From Lepidurus packardi (Eukaryota > Arthropoda > Branchiopoda > Notostraca > Triopsidae), in NCBI GenBank assembly GCA_023053545.1, contig JAKZAN010000007.1, forward strand, positions 9,424,001 through 9,488,000: a stretch of 64,000 nucleotides of DNA. Direction: 5' to 3'. How positions within the stretch are numbered: the first letter of the stretch is position 1; each line of letters opens with the position of its first letter. Of this stretch, positions 17,283 through 44,200 are shown piece after piece. A program made the translations under genes and the position numbers. The notes under the pieces were generated by a model. It was not told the DNA's origin. It did no database searches and was given only the letters and a program-made list of their open reading frames with translations.

Positions 17283-17351
17283 AGCTTGCAGATGTAAGCA
17301 AGCAAACGGTCGCGATAGCCAACCCTAAGCACCTCCCAGTACGCAAGCATC

Positions 17352-17357
17352 TATAAA
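17352..17357 (+). promoter_or_regulatory. TATA box of LRAT-like gene A
   Basis: TATAAA about 100 bp before the ATG at 17455, in a stretch conserved between the two paralogues. In copy B the matching site reads CCATAATAAACG and is no longer a good TATA box. Confidence 0.45.
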
Positions 17358-17454
17358 GCGACAGTCAAGGCGTAGATTGCATTATTTCAGGTCGACTTCC
17401 GGAACTGTCCGTATTCAAGTCGTTTTGCGGAGTACATATAAAACAAGCTGGAAA

Positions 17455-18114
17455 ATGTCAGGATTTGTGGGAAGTTCATTAAATTTGGGGTTGCGTTCAA
17501 TGCGACCGAAAAAGACAGGTAAACCCAACTGCATTAATATAGCTCGTATTAACTTTTTTATTGCTTCAGGGGAAGAAAAGCCTTTAGAAGATTACAAGGT
17601 AACCGACGAAGCTGAAAGAGATGTGGTAGTATATTTGTGTAGAGAACAGCTGAGCAGTTCTAAATCGGAATCAATGACACACTGGTCCTTGTACTTTTAC
17701 TTCAAAGATAGTGATTTCTATATAGTATACGATGCTGGAGAAGAGAATGGGAAGCTAACACCGTCCCGTAGAGTATATTTAAGTCTACCGCAGTCAGACG
17801 AAAGGGAAATTATGATTGATCAGATAGGAACGCTGACCATATCCCAGGCTGCACTACACAGGGCTGCATTAGCAAACCCTTTGAGCAATACGCCGTACAA
17901 AGTGGAGAATAATAATTGTCAACACTGGTGTCAGGCTCTTTGCAAAATCTTGGGCATAAGCAAAGCATTGGAAAACATACCTACTTTCCGTTCAGCAGTT
18001 AAAGCAGCTGAAATAGTAATGTTGTGTGGAATTGGTGCGTTAGTAACTGCAGGTATGACACTAACAGTACTTGAAAGTTTTGGATTACAACTTTGGTATT
18101 CGTATTACATTTAG
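17455..18114 (+). CDS. LRAT/NlpC-P60-like thiol protein, paralogue A
   Basis: 219 aa, no intron. It has a His in MTHWSLYF (residue 76) and a Cys in NNNCQHWC (residue 155), followed by a hydrophobic segment near residues 183-207. The His-then-Cys order, the NC-x-H motif and the C-terminal membrane anchor resemble the LRAT/PLAAT (HRASLS) acyltransferase and NlpC/P60 papain-like fold; overall similarity is too weak to give a substrate. ATG 17455 is chosen because it sits about 100 bp after a TATA box and is conserved in copy B; the frame stays open 26 codons upstream without ATG. AATAAA follows 18 bp after the stop. The lack of introns contrasts with the intron-rich neighbours and suggests a retrocopy or transfer. 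Confidence 0.65.
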   Translation: MSGFVGSSLNLGLRSMRPKKTGKPNCINIARINFFIASGEEKPLEDYKVTDEAERDVVVYLCREQLSSSKSESMTHWSLYFYFKDSDFYIVYDAGEENGKLTPSRRVYLSLPQSDEREIMIDQIGTLTISQAALHRAALANPLSNTPYKVENNNCQHWCQALCKILGISKALENIPTFRSAVKAAEIVMLCGIGALVTAGMTLTVLESFGLQLWYSYYI

Positions 18115-20102: not shown

Positions 20103-21105
20103 TTTGCAGCTTGCAGATGTAAGCAAGCAAACGGTCGCGATAGCCAAACCTAAGCACATCCCAGTACGCAAGCATCCATAATAAACGACAGCCAAGGCGT
20201 AGATTGCATCACTTTAGATCGACTTCTGGAACTGTCCGTATTCAAGTCGTTTTGCGTAGTTCATATAAAACAAGCTGGAAAATGTCACGACTTGTGGGAA
20301 GTTCATTAAATTCGAGTCGAAGTTCAAAGCCATCGTCAAATGCAGGTAAGCACAACTGCATGAATATAGCTCGTATTAACTATATAATTGGTTTAGCCCA
20401 AGCGTTGGTAAAGAAGCGTTTAGAAGACTGCAAGATAACCGATGAAGTTATACGAGATGTGGCAGTATATCTGTGTAGAAAAGTTGTCAGCTGTACATCG
20501 AAAACAATGACACACTTTTCCTTGTACTTTCACCTCCAAGATAGTGATTTATATATAGTATACGAGGCTGGAGAAGTGAATGGGAAGCTGATACCGTCCC
20601 GTAGCGCATGTTCAAGCCTACCGCCGTCAGACAAAACAGAAATTATGCATGAAAAGATAGGAACGCTGAGCATATCCCAGGCTGTACTACACATGGCTGC
20701 ATTAGCAAACCATTTGAGCAACAAGCCGTTCTGTGTAGAGAATTATAACTCTCAATCCTGGGCTTGGGTCCTTTGCTACATCTTGGGCATAACCAAAGAA
20801 CTCATTTCATTCTTTTCACCACTTACATTGTCGGACGCAATAATGACCGGAATTCTTGGTTTTGGTTCAATTGGTGCGTTGACTAACGACAAGTCTGCTA
20901 ACAGTACTTGAATTTTTGGTATTCAAACTTTGATATTCATATTACATTTAGGTTCGTTGTTGTCGACGCAAAAAACAAACAAGAAAATGTGAACTGGGAT
21001 AAATTGCCTGACAATCTATAGATTCGCATTTGGTTATGTGACTGTTCTCCTGCCTTTTCCAATGAACTCGGTTTAAAAGCGTGAGTTAAGGTGCTTTATT
21101 CTATA
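20103..21105. repeat. segmental duplication, copy B (about 1 kb)
   Basis: Direct copy of 17283-18275, diverged by many substitutions and small indels, including in the coding part. It includes the 5' flank, the coding region and the shared 3' flank. Confidence 0.85.
20282..20911 (+). CDS. LRAT/NlpC-P60-like paralogue B, predicted catalytically dead
   Basis: 209 aa, intronless, aligned with paralogue A over most of its length (NIARIN, MTHFSLYF, IPSR, IGTLSISQA). The His is kept at residue 78, but the NNNCQHWC motif of A is NYNSQSWA here, so the predicted nucleophile Cys and the next His are lost. The C-terminal hydrophobic segment is weaker and the end is changed. The frame is still open despite strong divergence, which suggests either a retained non-enzymatic role or a recent loss of constraint. 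The start corresponds to the ATG of A. Its TATA and polyA sites look degraded. Confidence 0.55.
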   Translation: MSRLVGSSLNSSRSSKPSSNAGKHNCMNIARINYIIGLAQALVKKRLEDCKITDEVIRDVAVYLCRKVVSCTSKTMTHFSLYFHLQDSDLYIVYEAGEVNGKLIPSRSACSSLPPSDKTEIMHEKIGTLSISQAVLHMAALANHLSNKPFCVENYNSQSWAWVLCYILGITKELISFFSPLTLSDAIMTGILGFGSIGALTNDKSANST

Positions 21106-32844: not shown

Positions 32845-33570
32845 ATTGGGATTGTTAACGACTGTTTTTTTGTTAACAACAACTTCCACCTAAAAGAAGA
32901 GGAATTTCCTTTTTTAGAATGAAAAATTAACGCATTTTTATAAGATTTTAAAGCAATTTCAGGTGGTTTTACTTTGGCACCAGCATTGTGATCTTCGGAG
33001 TAGCCGATTTTGAAACAAGGCACGTTAAACTGCGCAAATGCAGCCAACACTTGTTCTTCTTGGCTTTCGTTAGCTTCTAGAACGATTCCCAACTCTTCAG
33101 AGAAGAGAACTTCCAACGCAGATCCTTTTGAGTTTCTAAATTGATCCGGATCCCGCAAACGCCAGCAATCGCCATTTCCAATAAACAAGTCACCAAGCCT
33201 CCATCGCTAATGTCGTGGCCGGCCGTAACAGATCCTCCTAGATAACACCAACAATGAAACGTATTAGCAATGAAATCGCCACAAATGAAGACTACCAACA
33301 ATATGATAGCCAACCATGAAAAGTTATACAAACCAAAAAAAAAGTTACATCAACAACACAACTTACAACAACGAAATCGTCAAAAATGAATCGATCAAAG
33401 CTTGTAAAACGATAAAATGCAACAACGAAACCAATTAGTAATTAAACCTAAAAAAGTAAAACGGTTGACAACAGGATAGTCAAGAATGAAAAATCTCAAC
33501 GATGAACCTATGAGCAAGGAAATTTGCAATACATCGCCAAGAATGAAAAAGTTTATCAACGAAATCGCGT
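32845..33570 (-). pseudogene. duplicated fragment of Pfas (one exon plus parts of neighbours)
   Basis: On the minus strand it matches 42640-43455 of the intact Pfas gene: most of intron 13, the exon coding [17 protein letters not shown], the next intron and the start of the following exon (EVVVN). It lacks the rest of the 20-exon gene. Relative to Pfas it misses 13 bp in the exon, which shifts the frame, and an internal tandem copy of about 80 bp in the intron. Similarity is very high even in intron sequence, so the duplication is recent. It lies about 9.8 kb downstream (in Pfas direction) of its source, in the same orientation. Confidence 0.9.
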
Positions 33571-34597
33571 AATACAATCCAAATCCCCTTCACTTCTTTA
33601 GAGCATTCGGGTAAGTCCCATGGGAGCTAATGTAGGTTAGCTGGAATAATGCTGGAACTAATTGCGTTTCTCTTCTCAACTGTGAAAATCAATTACAGAA
33701 CACAGACAGACAATGGCCCCACAATTGACTTCTCAAGGAATGGTAGAAAAGCTTAATAGAGCGCCGCGGAGTTCCAAGGTGCCTTGAAGGAATTACGCTT
33801 TGGAGCCGCAATAATCCCAAAATGATTTTCCCATAACGGTCGATGACAAGTGAAGCGAAAGGTTAGCTTGCTGGCGAAAAAGAAAAGGGGCAAAAGGTAA
33901 ACTTTTGCCAAGAAACACGTTTGACCTGCGTTGAGCGTACTGTGTAGTATAGTGAAGTGTACTTGAAGGAGTACACAACATGTTTACCGGTTAAGAATCA
34001 CCTTTGGGGGTTGCCTCTTTGAAAAATGAACGAAAAAGCCGGTAGAAATAACCCTTAATGGTAACTCTATTGTCCCACTTGATAGATCCTCCGGAGCTAA
34101 CGGTCTCTCTAACCCATTTTCTTGATCCAGGGCCCTTTTTCCATAACACTTGCCAATAGCAAGGGTTCCCAAACCGCAGAAATTACGTTCGACGTGTTTT
34201 TCATCCACTCCATCACGCATACAATCCGATCTTCGACCTTCTAACTCCCGTGCCAGTCTTTATCTCACAAAATGCCCTTGCGATATGAGATAACGAATGA
34301 CTAATGTCGTTTTAGCTCGGAACAAGGCTGAGCGTCTACCTGTACACGTACAGACCTGTTGGGCTGAAGCTTATCATGCGTAATCGGACATCCAGCAACT
34401 TATCCTCATGTAAACTTTGGGGTATTTGAAGAGGGAGAAGTGTCTACTCCCTAACTCCCTAACTCGTATGACACTTGAAATGCTAAAAGGTCTCGAAATA
34501 GCCAAGCGAAATAGTTCAACGTTGATTTTGGATGAATTGGCGCACTGAACACACCGATATGCTATGCACAACGTTTTGCGAACGAAGTTTAAAGGGC
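33571..34597. other. no gene recognised
   Basis: Unique sequence without conserved coding features. It contains the 5' flank of the first ferritin-like gene. Confidence 0.35.
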
Positions 34598-34691: not shown

Positions 34692-36453
34692 ATGACTTCT
34701 ACTACTCAGAGTTTAGCGAGGCATCTTTACGCCAAAGATTGTGAAGATTGCACTAACGAGCAGATCAACCTTGAGTTGAAAGCTTTCTACAATGCATTGG
34801 CAATTGTAAGTACTCTACCATGCTTTTTACGAAATACAATTTACGAAATTAAAACGAATACTAATTTTACGAATAATTTTTAAAGCAAATTAACCGGAAC
34901 TTGCGTTTTATTCAAAGGATTTTACATTGCCAGGATTTAAAAGTTTAGCGGATCCGCAATTTACGTGTTTGTTGTTACTTTTTTACTAAAGTTTGTACTT
35001 TTTTACTAAAGTTGGTACTTTTTTTACTAAAGTTGGTACTTTTTTACTAAAGTTGGTACTTTTTTACTAAAGTTGGTACTTTTTTTACTAAAGTTGGTAC
35101 TTTTTACTAAAGTTGGTACTTTTTACTAAAGTTGGTACTTTTTACTAAAGTTGGTACTTATTTTTTACTAAAGCTGGTACTTATTTTTTACTAAAGTTGG
35201 TACTTTTTTACTAAAGTTGGTACTTTTTTTTACTAAAGTTGGTACTTTTTTTACTAAAGTTGGTACTTTTTTTACTAAAGTTGGTACTTTTTTTACTAAA
35301 GTTGGTACTTTTTTACTAAAGTTGGTACTTTTTTTTTTTACTAATGTTGTTACTTTTTACTAAAGTTGTTACTTTTTACTAAAGTTGGTACTTTTTACTA
35401 AAGTTGTTACTTTTTACTAAAGTTGGTACTTTTTTACTAAAGTTGGTACTTTTTTGTTACTAAAGTTGGTACTTTTTTACTAAAGTTGTTACTTGTTTAC
35501 TAAAGTTGGTGCTTTTTTACTAAAGTTGTTACTTTTTTTTACTAAAGTTGGTACTTTTTTTTTAACTAAAGTTGTTACTTTTTACGAGATACAGTTCAGT
35601 TTACGAAATAAAACTAACAGGAATATTTAAGAAATTTACGAATAGTTTTAAAGAAAATTAAGCTTTGGAGAATGGAACTCTGAGTTCTCTTACAGGATTT
35701 TACATTGTGATGATTTAAAAGTTTAGGGGATCTGGGATTTACAATGTTGTTAAAGTTTCAATGTTGATTTACAATGTTGTTGTCTACAATGAACGGAATT
35801 TAGATTTAAAAGAATGTACAAATGATAAGTTCAGAGTATGGCGAAGAATGTGAAGTTCTATTTCGTTTAGATTACGTTCTACTCCCATGACAATTGTCCC
35901 ATGCCTGGCATTGTGCAATTTGCTCGGCTCAAAGCGAAGAACTACCGCGAGCGTGCCTGTCGCATAATGGCCTATCAGGTATTGCGTGGCGCCCATGTTG
36001 CTTTCAAACCCATTGAGCCACCTAAGCAGCAGACCTTCAAGTCCTACATCGAAGCCTTCGAGGTACAAAACCACAAAATCCAATCCAACTGCGAAAAACA
36101 TTGGCTTTTGGATAGTTTTGAGTTTTCCAATGTTGTTTTAGTATTGCGTCAACGTCGCCAAATGCTTAGATGAAGGTCTCCACAAGTGGTTTGACTGCGC
36201 CCAAAAGTGTAAGGATGCTCATCTGATGCATTTCATCCAGGACAAGATGATGGACGAACTGCTCGTGTCCATCAAAGCCTCAGCGGACTGCTTATCCAAC
36301 CTCAGGATGGTCGGTGATGGGCTGGGAGTTTGGCTGTTTGATAGATGGCTTCAGAAAGTTGTATGTCAAGCCAAATCGGCCAAGCCTCCGCTTAACGTGA
36401 GCAGCGATATCGCCAAGTATTTGCCGGATCAGCTTTTCAACCCCTTGGGCTGA
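34692..36453 (+). CDS. Ferritin-family protein 1, ferroxidase residues missing
   Basis: Exons 34692-34805, 35871-36062 and 36142-36453 give 205 aa. From residue 28 to 142 it aligns without gaps to human ferritin heavy chain with a +1 offset: EQINLELKAFY (helix A), RACRIMAYQVLRG (helix B), DAHLMHFIQDKMMDELL and SNLRMVGDGLG (helices C-D), and VWLFDRWL near the E helix. Glu27 is kept (E28), but the other ferroxidase ligands are changed: E62 to Tyr, H65 to Arg, E107 to Ala, Q141 to Leu. Helix B is basic where light chains carry nucleating acids. No signal peptide is present, so it is probably cytosolic. A C-terminal extension of about 35 aa (AKPPLNVSSDIAKYLPDQ) is shared with the second gene. It is a lineage-specific paralogue; its role in iron storage is uncertain. 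Confidence 0.85.
34971..35584. repeat. minisatellite, about 20-bp unit, about 30 copies, in ferritin-like 1 intron 1
   Basis: Units read TACTAAAGTTGGTACTTTT with variable T runs and a GTTGTTACTT variant. The array is bracketed by two related segments (34834-34966 and 35582-35742), both with TTTACGAA-rich sequence and GGATTTTACATTG plus GATTTAAAAGTTTAG, so it expanded inside a duplicated block. Confidence 0.95.
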
Positions 36454-38780
36454 AAACACTCCCTCACAAACAACCAGTAACCTTGATGCTGGATACGGTT
36501 TTTGTTGAGCTTTGTGGCTTTTGTCTTTCACTTCAATGTTCGTTTTAACGTTTCAAGAATGTCAACGAATTGTATAAGAGTTTATTCGGGAATGTAGGTG
36601 GTGGGTTCTAGTTTTCTAAAATATAGTTTTCTAAAATACACGCATTCCAATGCACGTTTTGTGGTTCAACTTTCAATTAACTCCTATTTCACAACATAGC
36701 TTGAACCCTAAAACCATAGAAATCCCAAGTAATCAGCACTAAAATACAAATCGAACTTGTCCTGGTTTTATTTCGTAGCAATAATCCACTAGAATTACCT
36801 GGAAGGTGGAATACCTAGATTGATGCATTCATCGCCCTCAGTTTCAAGCTAATAAGTGACAAAAAAGTATCCTTGCGGAAAATGAAAATTCATTAGAGAC
36901 GAATTTCCTATGCTATAACTAACGAAAATGGACCTTAGTAACTGCCAAAGACGGCAAGGGCCATTTTCCTATGTTTTAAGCGTTGACAAGTCGTCCTTCG
37001 TAACATCAAACTTCAATATGGGCTACTTTATGTTCAAGTGGATAAAAGTAGACCTTAGTAAACATTAGACTACAATTAGGGAGCATTCCAATGCACGTTT
37101 TGTAGTTCAATTAACTTTCAATTAACTCCTATTTCACAACATAGCTTGAACCCTAAAACCATAGAAAATTCAAAATAACCAGCATTAAAATACAAATCGA
37201 ACTTGTCCATTGGTTTTATTTCGTAGCACTAATCCACTAGAATTACCTGGAAGGTGGAATACCTAGATTGATGGGTTCATCGCCCTTAGTTTTCAAGTTA
37301 AGAAGTTACAAAAAGTATCCTTACGGAAAATGAAAATTCCTTAGAGACGAATTTCCTATGCTATAACTAACGAAAATGGACCTTAGTAACTGCCAAAGAC
37401 GGCAAGGGCCATTTTCCTATGTTTTAAGCGTTGACAAGTCGTCCTTCGTAACATCAAACTTCCATAAGGGCTACTTTATGTTCAAATGGATAAAAGTAGA
37501 CTTTAGTAAACATTAGGCTGCAATTAGGGAGAAACTCCTACGCGTTTAACACCAACTCTTCTCATGTGCTCCTATTTTTTTAAATTTTCCTTCCCTTATT
37601 AGCAAAATTAGTATTTCATGCGCAATGGGACGAAACACAACAATAGGAATTCGATTTCTAGCTGTAGTTTGTTAACACAAGTTATTTTTTGGGTGGCTAT
37701 TCCCTTTTAAAAAGATCTCAGCTCCATAACAAGGTTTGTAAGCGTTTTATAATATTATATTTCTAAGATCATGTCCGGAGAAAACTCAAAATAAACAACT
37801 GAAATCGAACTTGTCCTAATCGTTTATTTCGTAGCACTGGTCCACTGCAATACCTAGAAATCGATATCAGATACATGCGTTGCCTTTGATTTGAAGTGAA
37901 TACATCCGAAAATGTTCGCACTCGAGCTTTCAACAAGGAAATTACAAGGTAGTACTGTATATGCAGCGACTATTTCACTGTTGACTTCCTTAACCCAGTA
38001 GCGTGGTTAGGAAATTTTCTATAGGCAACGACCATTTCATTGTTGACTTCCTTATCCCAGTAGCATCGCTTCAAATGACAAAAAACTTGTCACAGCATGG
38101 TAACAGTAAAGTAATTATACAAAAAGACCCTCGTTTACGGTACAGAAACCAATAACAAACCGTTTATACCCCCTTGCATTTGTCAGAGTAATAAAACTAG
38201 GCCAAGACTCTGAAGGTTGGGAACCCCCAACGTCTTCAACACAAACTTCTTCCTGTTGTCCACGTCACTCTTGGAGGGTCATAAACTTAGTCTTACACTT
38301 CCTACTGCGTTCCATGTGGCTTGCTGACCACCTTCCTGAATGACCTGAATGCTGAAGGTGCAATCGTGTTTCCATTCCAACCTGCCAAGTAAATAAACCC
38401 TTCAGCTGCTCTAATTGCGTACTGTAATCGACTTTCTACCCCACCAGACTTACCCAACAAACCCTCGAGACAGCTCCAAGCCTGTAATCTGCAATAAACT
38501 AACCTGACTAACCTGCAAGAACACGAAACGTTCTACAAACTAGTGATCCAAGTCGATCTGCAGAAGATATGGCAGACCATCGAGGCCATTTCGCATACCT
38601 GGAAGGCTTAAAACGGGGCAAAGTATGCAAACTAGAACGTTGATGCCTTCACACATTCGTACGACTCAAAACCCAGCCCAGTCACCCCCATTCCATCGTG
38701 AGGTGGTCGTCAGTTCCTGGAATTCGTATAGTACTTGTCTCGGCGAACCCAACCTAAGACCAACGACTCCCTTCTTAGCT
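36454..38780. other. spacer between ferritin-like genes with 441-bp tandem duplication
   Basis: A near-identical tandem duplication has copies starting at 36642 and 37083 (GCATTCCAATGCACGTTTTG), ending near 37534. Within it are degenerate units of about 60 bp (TTTCCTATG, GACCTTAGTAAC and CGTCCTTCGTAAC) related to the dispersed family in fry introns. A tandem pair of about 62 bp lies at 37958-38071 (TGTTGACTTCCTTA). No gene is recognised. Confidence 0.75.
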
Positions 38781-38788
38781 TATAAAAA
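38781..38788 (+). promoter_or_regulatory. TATA box of ferritin-like gene 2
   Basis: TATAAAAA in AGCTTATAAAAAGCTT, about 140 bp before the ATG at 38924. No CAGTGN iron-responsive hairpin is seen between it and the ATG. Confidence 0.45.
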
Positions 38789-38923
38789 GCTTGGGAGCAC
38801 GTACCCGTACTCTTGTAAGGGGACAAGTTGCAAACCATTATCACAAGCTAGTAATTTGACTTTAAAGTACCCAAAATTGGGGGCGCACAAGGAACTCATA
38901 CGCCGGAGGAAGGTTACCGAACT

Positions 38924-41089
38924 ATGGCAAGTAAATTAAAGAGTGAAGCTCGGCATTTCTACCATGAAGACAACGAACAATTCGCCAACGACCACATCAA
39001 TAAGGAACTCTACGCCAGCTACTGCGTAACGGCTATGGTAAGTTTGAGAATGAAAATCCTGAACAGGAAATCCTTTTAACTAGGCTGACGTTTCCTTATT
39101 ACTTCACAGTGGGCTTTCTTTGCTCGAGATGTAGCCGCAATGCCTGGAATGGTGGAGTTGGCTCGTTGCAAAGCCAAATTCCATCGCAAGCGTGCGAGTC
39201 GCATTATGGCGTACCAGGTTTTACGAGGGGCGCCTGTCAACTTGAAACCTATTGACAAACCTGTCAAGCAAGAATGGTCCAGCGGCAAAGAAGCCTTCGA
39301 GGTTCGTCATCTATTCATAATCCTTTTCAAGAAGTTCTTCTACTCGATTGACTCAAATGGATGGTTTATGGATGCGGTGGATAGGACTGTCTGAATATGG
39401 GGAAAATGCTGAACGAGAGCCTCCACGATTGGTATGAATCCGCCCAAAAGCACAACGACGGACATCTGCAGACCTTCTTGGAAGAGAAATTGATGGACGA
39501 ACTGCTCGTCACCATCAAATTCACAGCGGATTGTTATTCGAACTTGAATGTCGTGGGTGAAGGAGTGGGTACCTGGCTCTTTGATCGCTGGCTACAGGTT
39601 AGCTCCAACTTTGGCTAGTATTGCTTGATTTGCGCTTGAATTAATTCTAATTTGTGTAGAATTTTATATAAAATTATTCTAATTTTTTCAGAATTTGTCG
39701 GAAATTATTTAGAATGTTTCTAGATTTTTTCTTATGTAATTTTCTAGAGTCGTTCGGAAATTATTTCTACTTTTTCTATATTTTGTAAAAAAAAAAAAAA
39801 AAAAAAATAATATTTCCAATTTTCAAGAATTTTTCTGAAATTTTTCGAGAACTTTCTGCGATTATTTCTATTTTTTCTGAAATTATTTCTAAATTTTCTA
39901 GATTTTGTAAAAAAAAAATCTATTTCCAATTTTCTAGAATTTTTCTGAAATTTTTCGAGAACTTTCTGCGATTATTTCTATTTTTTCTGAAATTATTTCT
40001 AAATTTCCTAGATTTTGTAAAAAAAAAAAAAATCTATTCCCAATTTTATAGAATTTTTCTGAAATTTTTCGAGAACTTTCTGCGATTATTTCTATTTTTT
40101 CTGAAATTATTTCTAAATTTTCTAGATTTTGTAAAAAAAAAAAAAAATCTATTTCCAATTTTCTAGAATTTTTCTGAAATTTTTCGAGAACTTTCTGCGA
40201 TTATTTCTATTTTTTCTGAAATTATTTCTAAATTTTATAGATTTTGTAAAAAACAAATATATATATTTCCAATTTTCTAGAATTTTTCTGAAATTATTTG
40301 TTTGGCAGAATGAAGTTATTATGAATGAAATTATTTGTTTGGCAGTTTGGCAGAATTTTTCTGAAATTATTTCTAATTTCTCTAGAATCTTTCTGAATTA
40401 ACAATAATTTTTCTATATTTTTTTATTTTAAAATTTTCCTTGATTTTTTCTGAATTAATGTCCAATCTCTTTGCATTTTCTGAAATTATAGTCTTAAAGT
40501 ATCTCATTTTGTAGTCTTCTCCGAAAATACTTCTATTCTAGAATTTGTGTGAATTATTTCTAATTTGTATAGAATGTATGTAAAGTTATTCTAATGTTTC
40601 CAGAATTTTTCGGAAATTATTAAAAATATTTCTAGATTCTTTCTTGTGCAATTTTCTAGAGTCTTTCGGAAATTATTTCTAATTTTTCTATATTTTGTAA
40701 AAAAAAAAAAAAATATATTTCTAATTTTCTAGAATTTTTCTGAAATTATTTCTAATTTCTCTAGAATCTTTCTGATTAACAATAATTATTCCATGTTTTT
40801 ATTTTTAAATTTTCCTTGATTTTTTCTGAATTAATGTATGAATTAAATTTTCTAGAATTTTTCTGAAATTAGTTCAAACTTTCCAGACAGTTCCTGCAAT
40901 TATTCCTAATTTTTCTACAATATTTCTTACATTAATGTACAGTTCACTAGAATTTTTCAGAAATTATTTCAAATTACTTTTGTTTCGCAGAAAATGTGTC
41001 GTAAAGTGAAGTCAGAGAAGCCTCCGCTCGGGGTTGGCGACGACATCCAGAAATACATGCCAAATCCAATATTTGAACCGACACCTTGA
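38924..41089 (+). CDS. Ferritin-family protein 2, ferroxidase residues missing
   Basis: Exons 38924-39037, 39110-39301, 39385-39597 and 40991-41089 give 205 aa, the same length as ferritin-like 1. The first two introns are at identical positions (after codons 38 and 102) and a third intron, absent from gene 1, follows DRWLQ. The N-terminus ARHFYHEDNEQF and HINKELYASY is clearly ferritin. Glu27 is kept (E28), while the equivalents of E62, H65, E107 and Q141 are His63, Arg66, Gly108 and Leu142. The C-terminal extension EKPPLGVGDDIQKYMPNP is shared with gene 1. No signal peptide is seen. It converges with Pfas 209 bp downstream. The two genes are old tandem duplicates, diverged but both open and both lacking the ferroxidase centre. 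Confidence 0.87.
39660..40260. repeat. tandem repeat of about 115 bp in ferritin-like 2 intron 3
   Basis: Four to five copies contain TTTTTCGAGAACTTTCTGCG, ATTATTTCTATTTTTTCTG and a GATTTTGTAAAAA run of variable length. The whole 1.39 kb intron (39598-40990) is made of related TTTCTAGAATTTTTCTGAAA motifs. Confidence 0.9.
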
Positions 41090-41297: not shown

Positions 41298-44200
41298 CTA
41301 AGGCTTGGTATCACACCATTGGAATGCGTTATCGAATAATTTGATCCAGGGCGAGTATTGGCCTCGCTCCCAGTCAAACGGCATGTAAGGCCATTGCCAA
41401 GGTAGGACGCAACGTTCCGGATGGGGCATTAACGCCAAAAACCTTCCATCGGCTGAACATAATCCCGCAATTGCACCTTGAAAATAAAATAAAAAAAACA
41501 AAATTAACAAAAATCAATCAAATAACTGTAAAAAGTCTAATTTTATGTAGATGAGGTGTACTTGGGCTGCCATTGGGGTTCATTGGGTATTCTTGAGTGG
41601 GTTGCGCGTCATCATCGACGTATTTCAACGCTACACACCCTTGTGACGCCAAAGTTGGCAAAACTTGTTCATCCCTGAACGCGAAACGTCCTAATAAACC
41701 CCCATTTTCATTAAAAAACACGAAATTCGCTAGATATGATTGAATTCCATTGGATTTTCGCTGTTCTTTTCAGAAATTACCTTCTCCATGGGCTACCCAA
41801 ACACCCAGTACGGACCCTTGCATGCCCTTGAGCAGAATCGAGGAAGATTCTTCTATGCGAACGGTGCTAAAACGAGATTCAAAGCGTCCAGATTCATTGT
41901 GTTCCAAAACAACTTCGGAATGTAATGTATCTCCTCCCCCTACACCAATATTATTATGAATTCGCACAGCTTAAGTCAATTTTATGAATTATTCTATACT
42001 TTTAGGGTCCATCCAGCCCAAAAGGGCCATAAGTTGGCAGCCATTGCAAACGCCAAGGCTGAAAGTGTCTTGTCGCTTCCGGAAATGGTCCAATTGCGCG
42101 CGGATATCCGTATGGAAGAGCAAACTGGCGGCCCAACCCTTCGCCGAGCCCAAAACATCTGAAAAAGATGGATGAAATCGTGTTTTTCAGGAAAAGAAGG
42201 ATCCCACCAGCGTAGCTAAAGCCACCAGGGAAGATAATGCCACGAAAACGATCCAAAACTACTTTGTTTTGCAATAAATCAGTGGTTGTGATGTCCCATA
42301 CTTCGAAACCAGCCATCAACAAAGAAGCGGCCATTTCTCGGTCTCCATTCGTGCCTTCTTCCCTCCAAACTGCCACGCAATGAGCAGAATTAACGCCTGC
42401 AATTAAGAAAATGACATAATGAAGGATTTTGACAGAAACTTTCATGAATAAATGAGATAAATTATCGGTACCAATAGGGCGTTTGATGTTATACTGTTTC
42501 ATATCGAAGGACAGTTTGTAGCTGGGTCCCTTACGGCGCTGCAAGCCTTGAAATTCTTGCTGCACACACTCGGGATTGGCTTGCAAACGCTCGAGTTGGA
42601 AACTCGTTTCTTCCCAGTCGAATAAAACTTCATTTAGGGAACGATTAACGACTGTTTGATTGTTAACAACAATTTCCACCTAAAAGAAGAGGAATTTTTA
42701 TTGACTTTTTTGAATCAAATTTGAACGCATTTTTATAAGATTTTAATGCAATTTCAGGTGGGTTTACTTTGGCGCCAGCATTCTGATCTTCGGAGTAGCC
42801 GATTTTGAAACAAGGCACGTTAAACTGCGCAAACGTAGCCAATACTTGTTCTTCTTGGCTTTCGTTAGCTTCTAGAACGATTCCCAACTCTTCAGAGAAG
42901 AGAACTTCCAACGCAGATCCTGATCGCAGATCCTTTTGAGTTTCTAAATTGATCCGGATCCCGCAAACGCCAGCAATCGCCATTTCCAATAAACAAGTCA
43001 CCAAGCCTCCATCGCTAATGTCGTGGCCGGCCGTAACAGATCCTCCTAGATAACACCAACAATGAAACGTATTAGCAATGAAATCGCCATAAATAAAGAC
43101 TACCAACAATATGATAGCCAACAATGAAAAGTTATAAAAACGAGCCCATTAACAATGAAATTTACAACGAAATTGTCAAAAATTGCTCAATGATAGCCAA
43201 CAATGAAAAGTTATATAAAAAAAAAAAGTTACATTAACAACAAAATTTACAACAACGAAATAGTCAAAAATGAATCAATCAATGCTTGTAAAACGATAAA
43301 ATGCAACAAACGAAACCTATTAGTAATTAAACCTAAAAAAGTAAAACGGTTAACAATAGGCTAGTCAACAATGAAAAATCTCAACGATGAACCTGTGACC
43401 AAGGAAATTTGCAATAAATCGTCAATAATGAAAAAGTTTATCAACGAAATCGCGTAAAACGAAAAAATCCAACAATGAAAAGGCAACAATGAAACTGCTG
43501 ATACGAAAAGAAAAGAAATACGACAACGAAATCACCAGTAACGAAAAGCTTCAACAATGAAATTTCTAGCAACCTAAATATTCAACCATGAAAAATTTCA
43601 TCAACGAAAGCGGGCCAAACGAAAAATGCAACAATTAATTCGCGTAAAACAAAAAAAATGCAACAATGAAATTACTGGTATTAGTACGACAAGGAATCGG
43701 CAGTGTTGAAAAACTTCAACAATGAGATTGTGAGATTTCCAAAAACGAAGAACTTAATAATGGAAATTTCAACAATGATAAAGCGCTAATATTTACCCGC
43801 AATGAGTTGCTGGGTGGCTTCGAACATGTTGACCAACAATGAGCAGTCGTCTAAATCGGGTGTCGAGTTCCCGAGCTGCTGATAGCACTGGGCTAAAGCT
43901 GATCCTCCTAACCGAGCTTGAGCTCGACTTAAATCCACCAAGAAAATCGCTCCTCGTTGACCCACGGACGGCAGTTTCAGATCAGGCGTTATAACCTTGC
44001 GAATATCGGGACAGGGAGCATAGGCGGATACAACGATGGAACCGGGCGCTTTCACCACTTGTCCGTCGACTCTGGCAGCCATACTGAGCGAATCCTTGCC
44101 TCCATCGATAGCCACGCCTACTTTCTCCATGGCTTCGCATAAACTCAAGCAAGCGTCCACCAACAAGGCTCCTTCGCCTGGTAACTTGGCTGCCCACATC

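Follow-up and report, generated by a model that had tools for sequence, protein, structure and literature searches.

The window, by which we mean the whole 64,000-nucleotide stretch of Lepidurus packardi DNA that was analysed, carries two ferritin-like genes, gene 1 and gene 2, arranged in tandem and head to tail on the + strand between positions 34692 and 41089, both of them spliced and with intact reading frames. Gene 1 consists of exon 1 (34692..34805, codons 1-38), which covers the helix A region and is followed by a GTAAGT donor, exon 2 (35871..36062, codons 39-102), which covers helix B and loop L, and exon 3 (36142..36453, codons 103-205 and the stop), which covers helices C, D and E together with an artemin-like tail. 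Gene 2 is divided into exon 1 (38924..39037, codons 1-38), exon 2 (39110..39301, codons 39-102), exon 3 (39385..39597, codons 103-173) and exon 4 (40991..41089, codons 174-205 and the stop), the last of which encodes the artemin-like tail only and is separated from the rest by intron 3 (39598..40990), an intron with A+T-rich repeats that has no counterpart in gene 1. All five introns are of the GT...AG type, each protein is 205 amino acids long, and the two proteins align from end to end without a gap, with 110 of 205 residues identical. Both are recognised by the Pfam ferritin profile PF00210 (E = 3e-11 and 43.9 bits for gene 1, E = 7.3e-16 and 58.8 bits for gene 2, against a curated cut-off of 24.5). 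Like the three canonical cytosolic ferritins of the host, a pair on contig C4 and one on C6, they have a ferritin domain and an intron 1 that is the same in position and phase; in contrast, intron 2, which is common to genes 1 and 2, and intron 3 of gene 2 are absent from the canonical genes, whose coding part has no intron after the first.

Several repeats lie in and around the pair. Intron 1 of gene 1 (34806..35870) contains a minisatellite at 34970-35590 with units of about 20 bp (TTTTTACTAAAGTTGGTAC), counted as 25 overlapping reference copies, and a tandem pair of units of about 445 bp, 93% identical, occupies 36642-37531 between the two genes. Furthermore, a piece of an FGAM synthase gene on the - strand (part of the AIRS_C domain) is duplicated, at 32855-33575 and 42645-43460, with approximately 92% identity; the duplicate sits across the ferritin pair from the original and looks partial. 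Elsewhere in the window, two similar open frames at 17329-18114 (261 aa) and 20144-20911 (255 aa) look like another tandem pair, and the former has a weak, sub-threshold Pfam match to Peptidase_C97 (E = 0.003).

The first-pass annotation of this DNA had described the two proteins as ferritins with a dismantled ferroxidase centre. Residues were compared in an alignment of genes 1 and 2, artemin and ten canonical ferritins, namely three from the host, six from the PDB and human ferritin H, which served as the reference for residue numbering. The gapless correspondence to human ferritin H from E27 to Q141 (offset +1) that had been claimed was recovered for both proteins. Each keeps one of the seven ferroxidase residues, E27, while all seven are present in the three cytosolic ferritins of the host. 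At Y34, E61, E62, H65, E107 and Q141, gene 1 has A, N, Y, R, A and L, gene 2 has V, F, H, R, G and L, and artemin has A, V, S, R, K and V, so that retention of E27 and the change of H65 to R are common to all three proteins and the change of Y34 to A is common to gene 1 and artemin. The replacements previously reported at E62, H65, E107 and Q141 (Y/R/A/L in gene 1 and H/R/G/L in gene 2, with E27 kept) were therefore correct, and the loss was in fact understated, because Y34 (A or V) and E61 (N or F) are replaced as well. Judged by the seven ferroxidase residues, both genes fail to qualify as catalytic H-type ferritins.

The sites of iron nucleation have changed in a similar manner. Human positions 57, 60, 61 and 64 in our alignment correspond to W73, H76, V77 and Q80 of artemin, which are the nucleation positions given in a passage of PMC9742257, and they read L, K, N and E in gene 1 and C, K, F and K in gene 2; one of the four acids is thus left in gene 1, where position 64 in helix B is E, and none in gene 2, where it is K. 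The basic residues noted earlier in helix B were also found, with R at human position 56 and K at position 60 in both proteins. The computed pI is 8.3 for gene 1 and 7.0 for gene 2, compared with 5.3-5.5 for the three canonical ferritins of the host. At the 3-fold channel, D131 is replaced by H or T in genes 1 and 2; however, the host canonical ferritins have N or Q there and gene 2 keeps E134, and therefore loss of the channel residues is no clear shared trait. The vertebrate ferritin L chain is without a working ferroxidase centre, keeps acidic nucleation residues and co-assembles with the H chain. Genes 1 and 2 likewise appear to be without a working ferroxidase centre, but their nucleation positions are mostly basic or neutral and they carry an extra tail.

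The annotation had implied that such proteins are without precedent, which was not borne out, since artemin, a dormancy chaperone of Artemia for which a cryo-EM model has been deposited as 7RVB (described in passages of PMC9742257), is a precedent by structure match, tail, shared residues and tree. For both genes, 7RVB was the top match among solved structures (E = 1.4e-36 for gene 1 and 1.5e-37 for gene 2), spanning residues 9-203 of gene 1 and 8-202 of gene 2, and among the best 60 of 238 (gene 1) or 242 (gene 2) matches it was the only one to enter the tail, the other 59 ending at or before residue 173. An extra C-terminal tail with KPPL and DI-KY motifs is indeed common to both copies, as had been noticed from the letters; the canonical ferritins of the host have no such tail. 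According to passages of PMC9742257, artemin extends beyond the ferritin domain by a loop L' (with Pro198, Pro201 and a kink at Pro213) and by helix F (residues 216-229). Against the artemin tail, the 32-residue tail scored 37 in gene 1 and 32 in gene 2, each score being reached by 2 of 5000 shuffles; both tails align to loop L' and keep Pro201 and Pro213 but not Pro198. Because only 8 residues remain after the Pro213 equivalent, helix F can be at most a stub. The structure predicted for the last exon of gene 1 had a mean pLDDT of 52.7, too poor for use.

Within the ferritin domain, 12 residues are common to genes 1 and 2 and artemin and absent from all ten canonical ferritins, compared with at most one such shared residue in control triples of artemin and two canonicals (n = 45). 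Expressed differently, there are 27 columns in which genes 1 and 2 carry the same non-canonical residue, and artemin has this residue too at 12 of these, a number reached in 0 of 20000 shuffles. A maximum-likelihood domain tree under a profile-mixture model, which left out four host ferritin matches (one on C5 resembling the secreted type and three on small contigs), joined gene 1, gene 2 and artemin with support of 100/100, to be read with the caveat of a single artemin sequence on a long branch (1.35). Topologies that united genes 1 and 2 with the host ferritins to the exclusion of artemin were rejected (p-AU 0.0024), as were those that united artemin with the host ferritins (p-AU 0.0004); one group made of the trio and the host ferritins was neither favoured nor rejected (p-AU 0.27), and the tests settle no branching order within the trio. 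On the tree, these tests and the shared residues, the idea that each gene is a separate, degenerate copy of a host ferritin was rejected. Overall identity in the domain is less telling: artemin shares 39.3% with either gene, which for gene 2 is no more than some canonical ferritins attain (up to 40.7%) and for gene 1 is slightly above their maximum of 36.6%. As far as the sequences go, the signal that ties genes 1 and 2 to artemin is which residues are shared, plus the tail.

The resemblance to artemin of Artemia franciscana thus comprises the ferritin fold, E27 as the sole survivor of the seven ferroxidase residues, the change of H65 to R and an L'-type tail; artemin itself keeps 1 of 7 ferroxidase and 0 of 4 nucleation residues (passages of PMC9742257). 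Furthermore, both genes keep Cys119 and Cys166 (artemin numbering), and the cysteine count of gene 1, ten, equals that given for artemin in part of PMC7668597. Unlike artemin, gene 2 has five cysteines, the two genes form a tandem pair, the N-terminus is shorter by about 15 residues, helix F is truncated and Pro198 is not conserved. In addition, the equivalent of Cys61 is N46 in gene 1 and V46 in gene 2, and the first cysteine comes at residue 17 or 34, respectively; since there is no cysteine in the first 16 residues and Cys61 is replaced, the inter-subunit disulphide Cys22-Cys61, which forms the redox switch of artemin, is not conserved, although gene 1 has a cysteine (C47) one place off the Cys61 equivalent. 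Redox control is expected to be weaker or absent, at least for gene 2. Because of the helix F stub, the unconserved disulphide and Pro198, and the five cysteines of gene 2, we class the two proteins, on their residues, as variants of the artemin clade rather than as artemin proper.

The two genes are under purifying selection. A comparison of gene 1 with gene 2 gave a pN of 0.31 and a pS of 0.72; their ratio is 0.43, with a bootstrap range of 0.34-0.52. Synonymous sites are almost saturated, and therefore the duplication is old; no similarity remained between the upstream regions of the two genes when these were compared. That both copies are maintained, as the first-pass annotation had argued, agrees with the open frames and with this ratio. 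A dN/dS of about 1, named beforehand, together with a lack of expression, as a sign to the contrary, was not what the ratio of 0.43 indicates, and neither do the genes look like misassembled parts of a canonical gene, the other such sign, given that the gene models are intact and that canonical ferritins elsewhere in the genome keep 7/7 residues.

The genome searched comprises 108.6 Mb in 344 contigs. A profile search of it with PF00210 gave seven exon matches, the window genes not being among them: the three canonical cytosolic ferritins, one on C5 that resembles ferritins of the secreted type, and a further three on small contigs. The ferritin-domain open frames on contigs C204, C197 and C42 (L001, L002 and L006) are intronless and possibly come from bacterial companions or contamination. 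When the gene 2 protein was compared with the genome, the best candidates included genes 1 and 2 themselves as well as all three canonical ferritins, and no further artemin-like gene. A search for Hsp20 gave five matches; a search for LEA_4 gave none in this genome and none in the control genomes either. Two loci (C4 at approximately 11.908 Mb, L034, and C1:706141-714694) have Cu/Zn-SOD exons that immediately precede vitellogenin exons of the same strand, an order that suggests a branchiopod; in Daphnia pulex, vitellogenins 1-3 are described in part of PMC2678069 as having an N-terminal SOD-like domain.

The regulatory regions also set the pair apart from the canonical ferritins. An IRE-like hairpin, made up of a C bulge, a stem of 5 bp and the loop CAGTGA, lies 101-108 nt upstream of the ATG in all three canonical cytosolic genes (L027, positions 4528 and 7102; L028, position 5554). 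Its identical 23-nt core, with up to two mismatches allowed, occurs at exactly three places, all in front of canonical ferritins. Compared with shuffles, the three folds reached z-scores of -2.4, -0.9 and -1.7. The Rfam IRE models matched neither the window genes nor the canonical genes, and because they do not recognise the element, the canonical hairpin was called by motif, pairing and exact conservation. In the whole window the strict IRE motif had no match, and hence none before genes 1 and 2; among seven loose matches, one lies 1.9 kb before gene 1 with 4 of 5 stem pairs and 1 of 6 lower pairs, and gene 2 has none. By the strict motif, IRE-based iron regulation of the pair was therefore rejected. 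Expression of artemin is Hsf1-dependent (as stated in part of PMC6034868), and the number of heat-shock-element-like sites in 1500 bp, 0 for gene 1 and 1 for gene 2 against a background of 1.5, showed no enrichment, which does not help the comparison.

What the two genes might do is suggested by artemin. Passages of PMC9742257 and PMC7668597 describe the artemin 24-mer as binding no iron, giving dimers under heat or oxidant and preventing aggregation. Having retained both the defunct iron site and the L' tail, genes 1 and 2 would be expected to form iron-free shells with a chaperone function, and we consider it somewhat probable, at about 0.6, that they are ferritin-fold cages of the artemin clade acting as dormancy chaperones (holdases). 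The subunits would probably assemble into a 24-mer shell from which the ferroxidase site and the iron-nucleating acids have been lost, and the C-terminal segment, the equivalent of L', may lie against the inner wall, at the place otherwise used for iron nucleation. By analogy with artemin, the proteins could be ATP-independent holdases, perhaps RNA chaperones, for which the shell would store subunits that stress releases as dimers or small oligomers binding unfolding clients; the most likely setting would be the dormant egg of this branchiopod crustacean. The non-canonical but maintained role postulated in the first-pass annotation is supported, as are the dismantled iron chemistry and the conserved tail.

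Other explanations should also be weighed. An iron-free shell of the same clade may be put to another use, with RNA, other metals, an egg protein store or a role in ordinary tissue in place of a dormancy chaperone; a different cargo was also among the suggestions of the first-pass annotation. The absence of helix F and of the inter-subunit disulphide, which papers tie to the stability or function of artemin, would be in line with this, as would the lack of an excess of heat-shock elements, the basic helix B residues and pI values of 8.3 and 7.0 as opposed to 5.3-5.5; on the other hand, both genes retain the defunct iron site and the L' tail as in artemin, and we regard this alternative as unlikely, although it carries more weight than the remaining two. 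It had also been suggested that the proteins cap or tune mixed shells, and regulatory subunits that co-assemble with the canonical ferritins of the host would account for a ferritin domain retained over its whole length in a genome that has three canonical cytosolic partners. However, the tail would fill the cavity as in artemin, the IRE-like hairpin of the supposed partners is missing from genes 1 and 2, and the clade is that of artemin, which is reported in a passage of PMC9742257 as a homomeric 24-mer; nothing was found in favour of the capping role, which we consider improbable.

Finally, functionless decaying duplicates or assembly artefacts could be imagined from the lost active-site residues and the repeat-rich introns, but this is very improbable in view of two open frames with GT-AG introns at equivalent places, a pN/pS of 0.43 with an upper bound of 0.52, complete canonical ferritins at separate loci, and residues and a tail held in common with artemin. 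A misassembled or decaying ferritin was rejected on the gene models, the alignment and pN/pS.

In a passage of a 2020 review (PMC7649794), artemin is reported to account for 7-13% of soluble protein in Artemia cysts and is called Artemia-specific, and according to part of a 2012 paper (PMC3253786), other species had yielded no artemin orthologue. In the open-licence PMC literature, we found no title on artemin outside Artemia, though relatives may already be annotated in sequence databases, and the artemin or ferritin passages of rotifer, springtail, tardigrade and copepod papers report no artemin orthologue. It is tempting, if tentative, to speculate that artemin is an older crustacean and probably branchiopod-wide dormancy cage, an older form of which combined the defunct iron site with the L' tail but was without helix F or the disulphide. 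Artemia would then have added the redox switch and the helix that fills the cavity (unless both were lost here), and the host would split the work between tandem paralogues with ten and five cysteines. Divergent homologues outside Artemia provide a comparative handle, in that the defunct iron site and the L' tail persist whereas helix F and the disulphide do not. If the interpretation is true, one could test for a single origin of ferritin-derived dormancy cages within the branchiopods and for a strict need of redox control.
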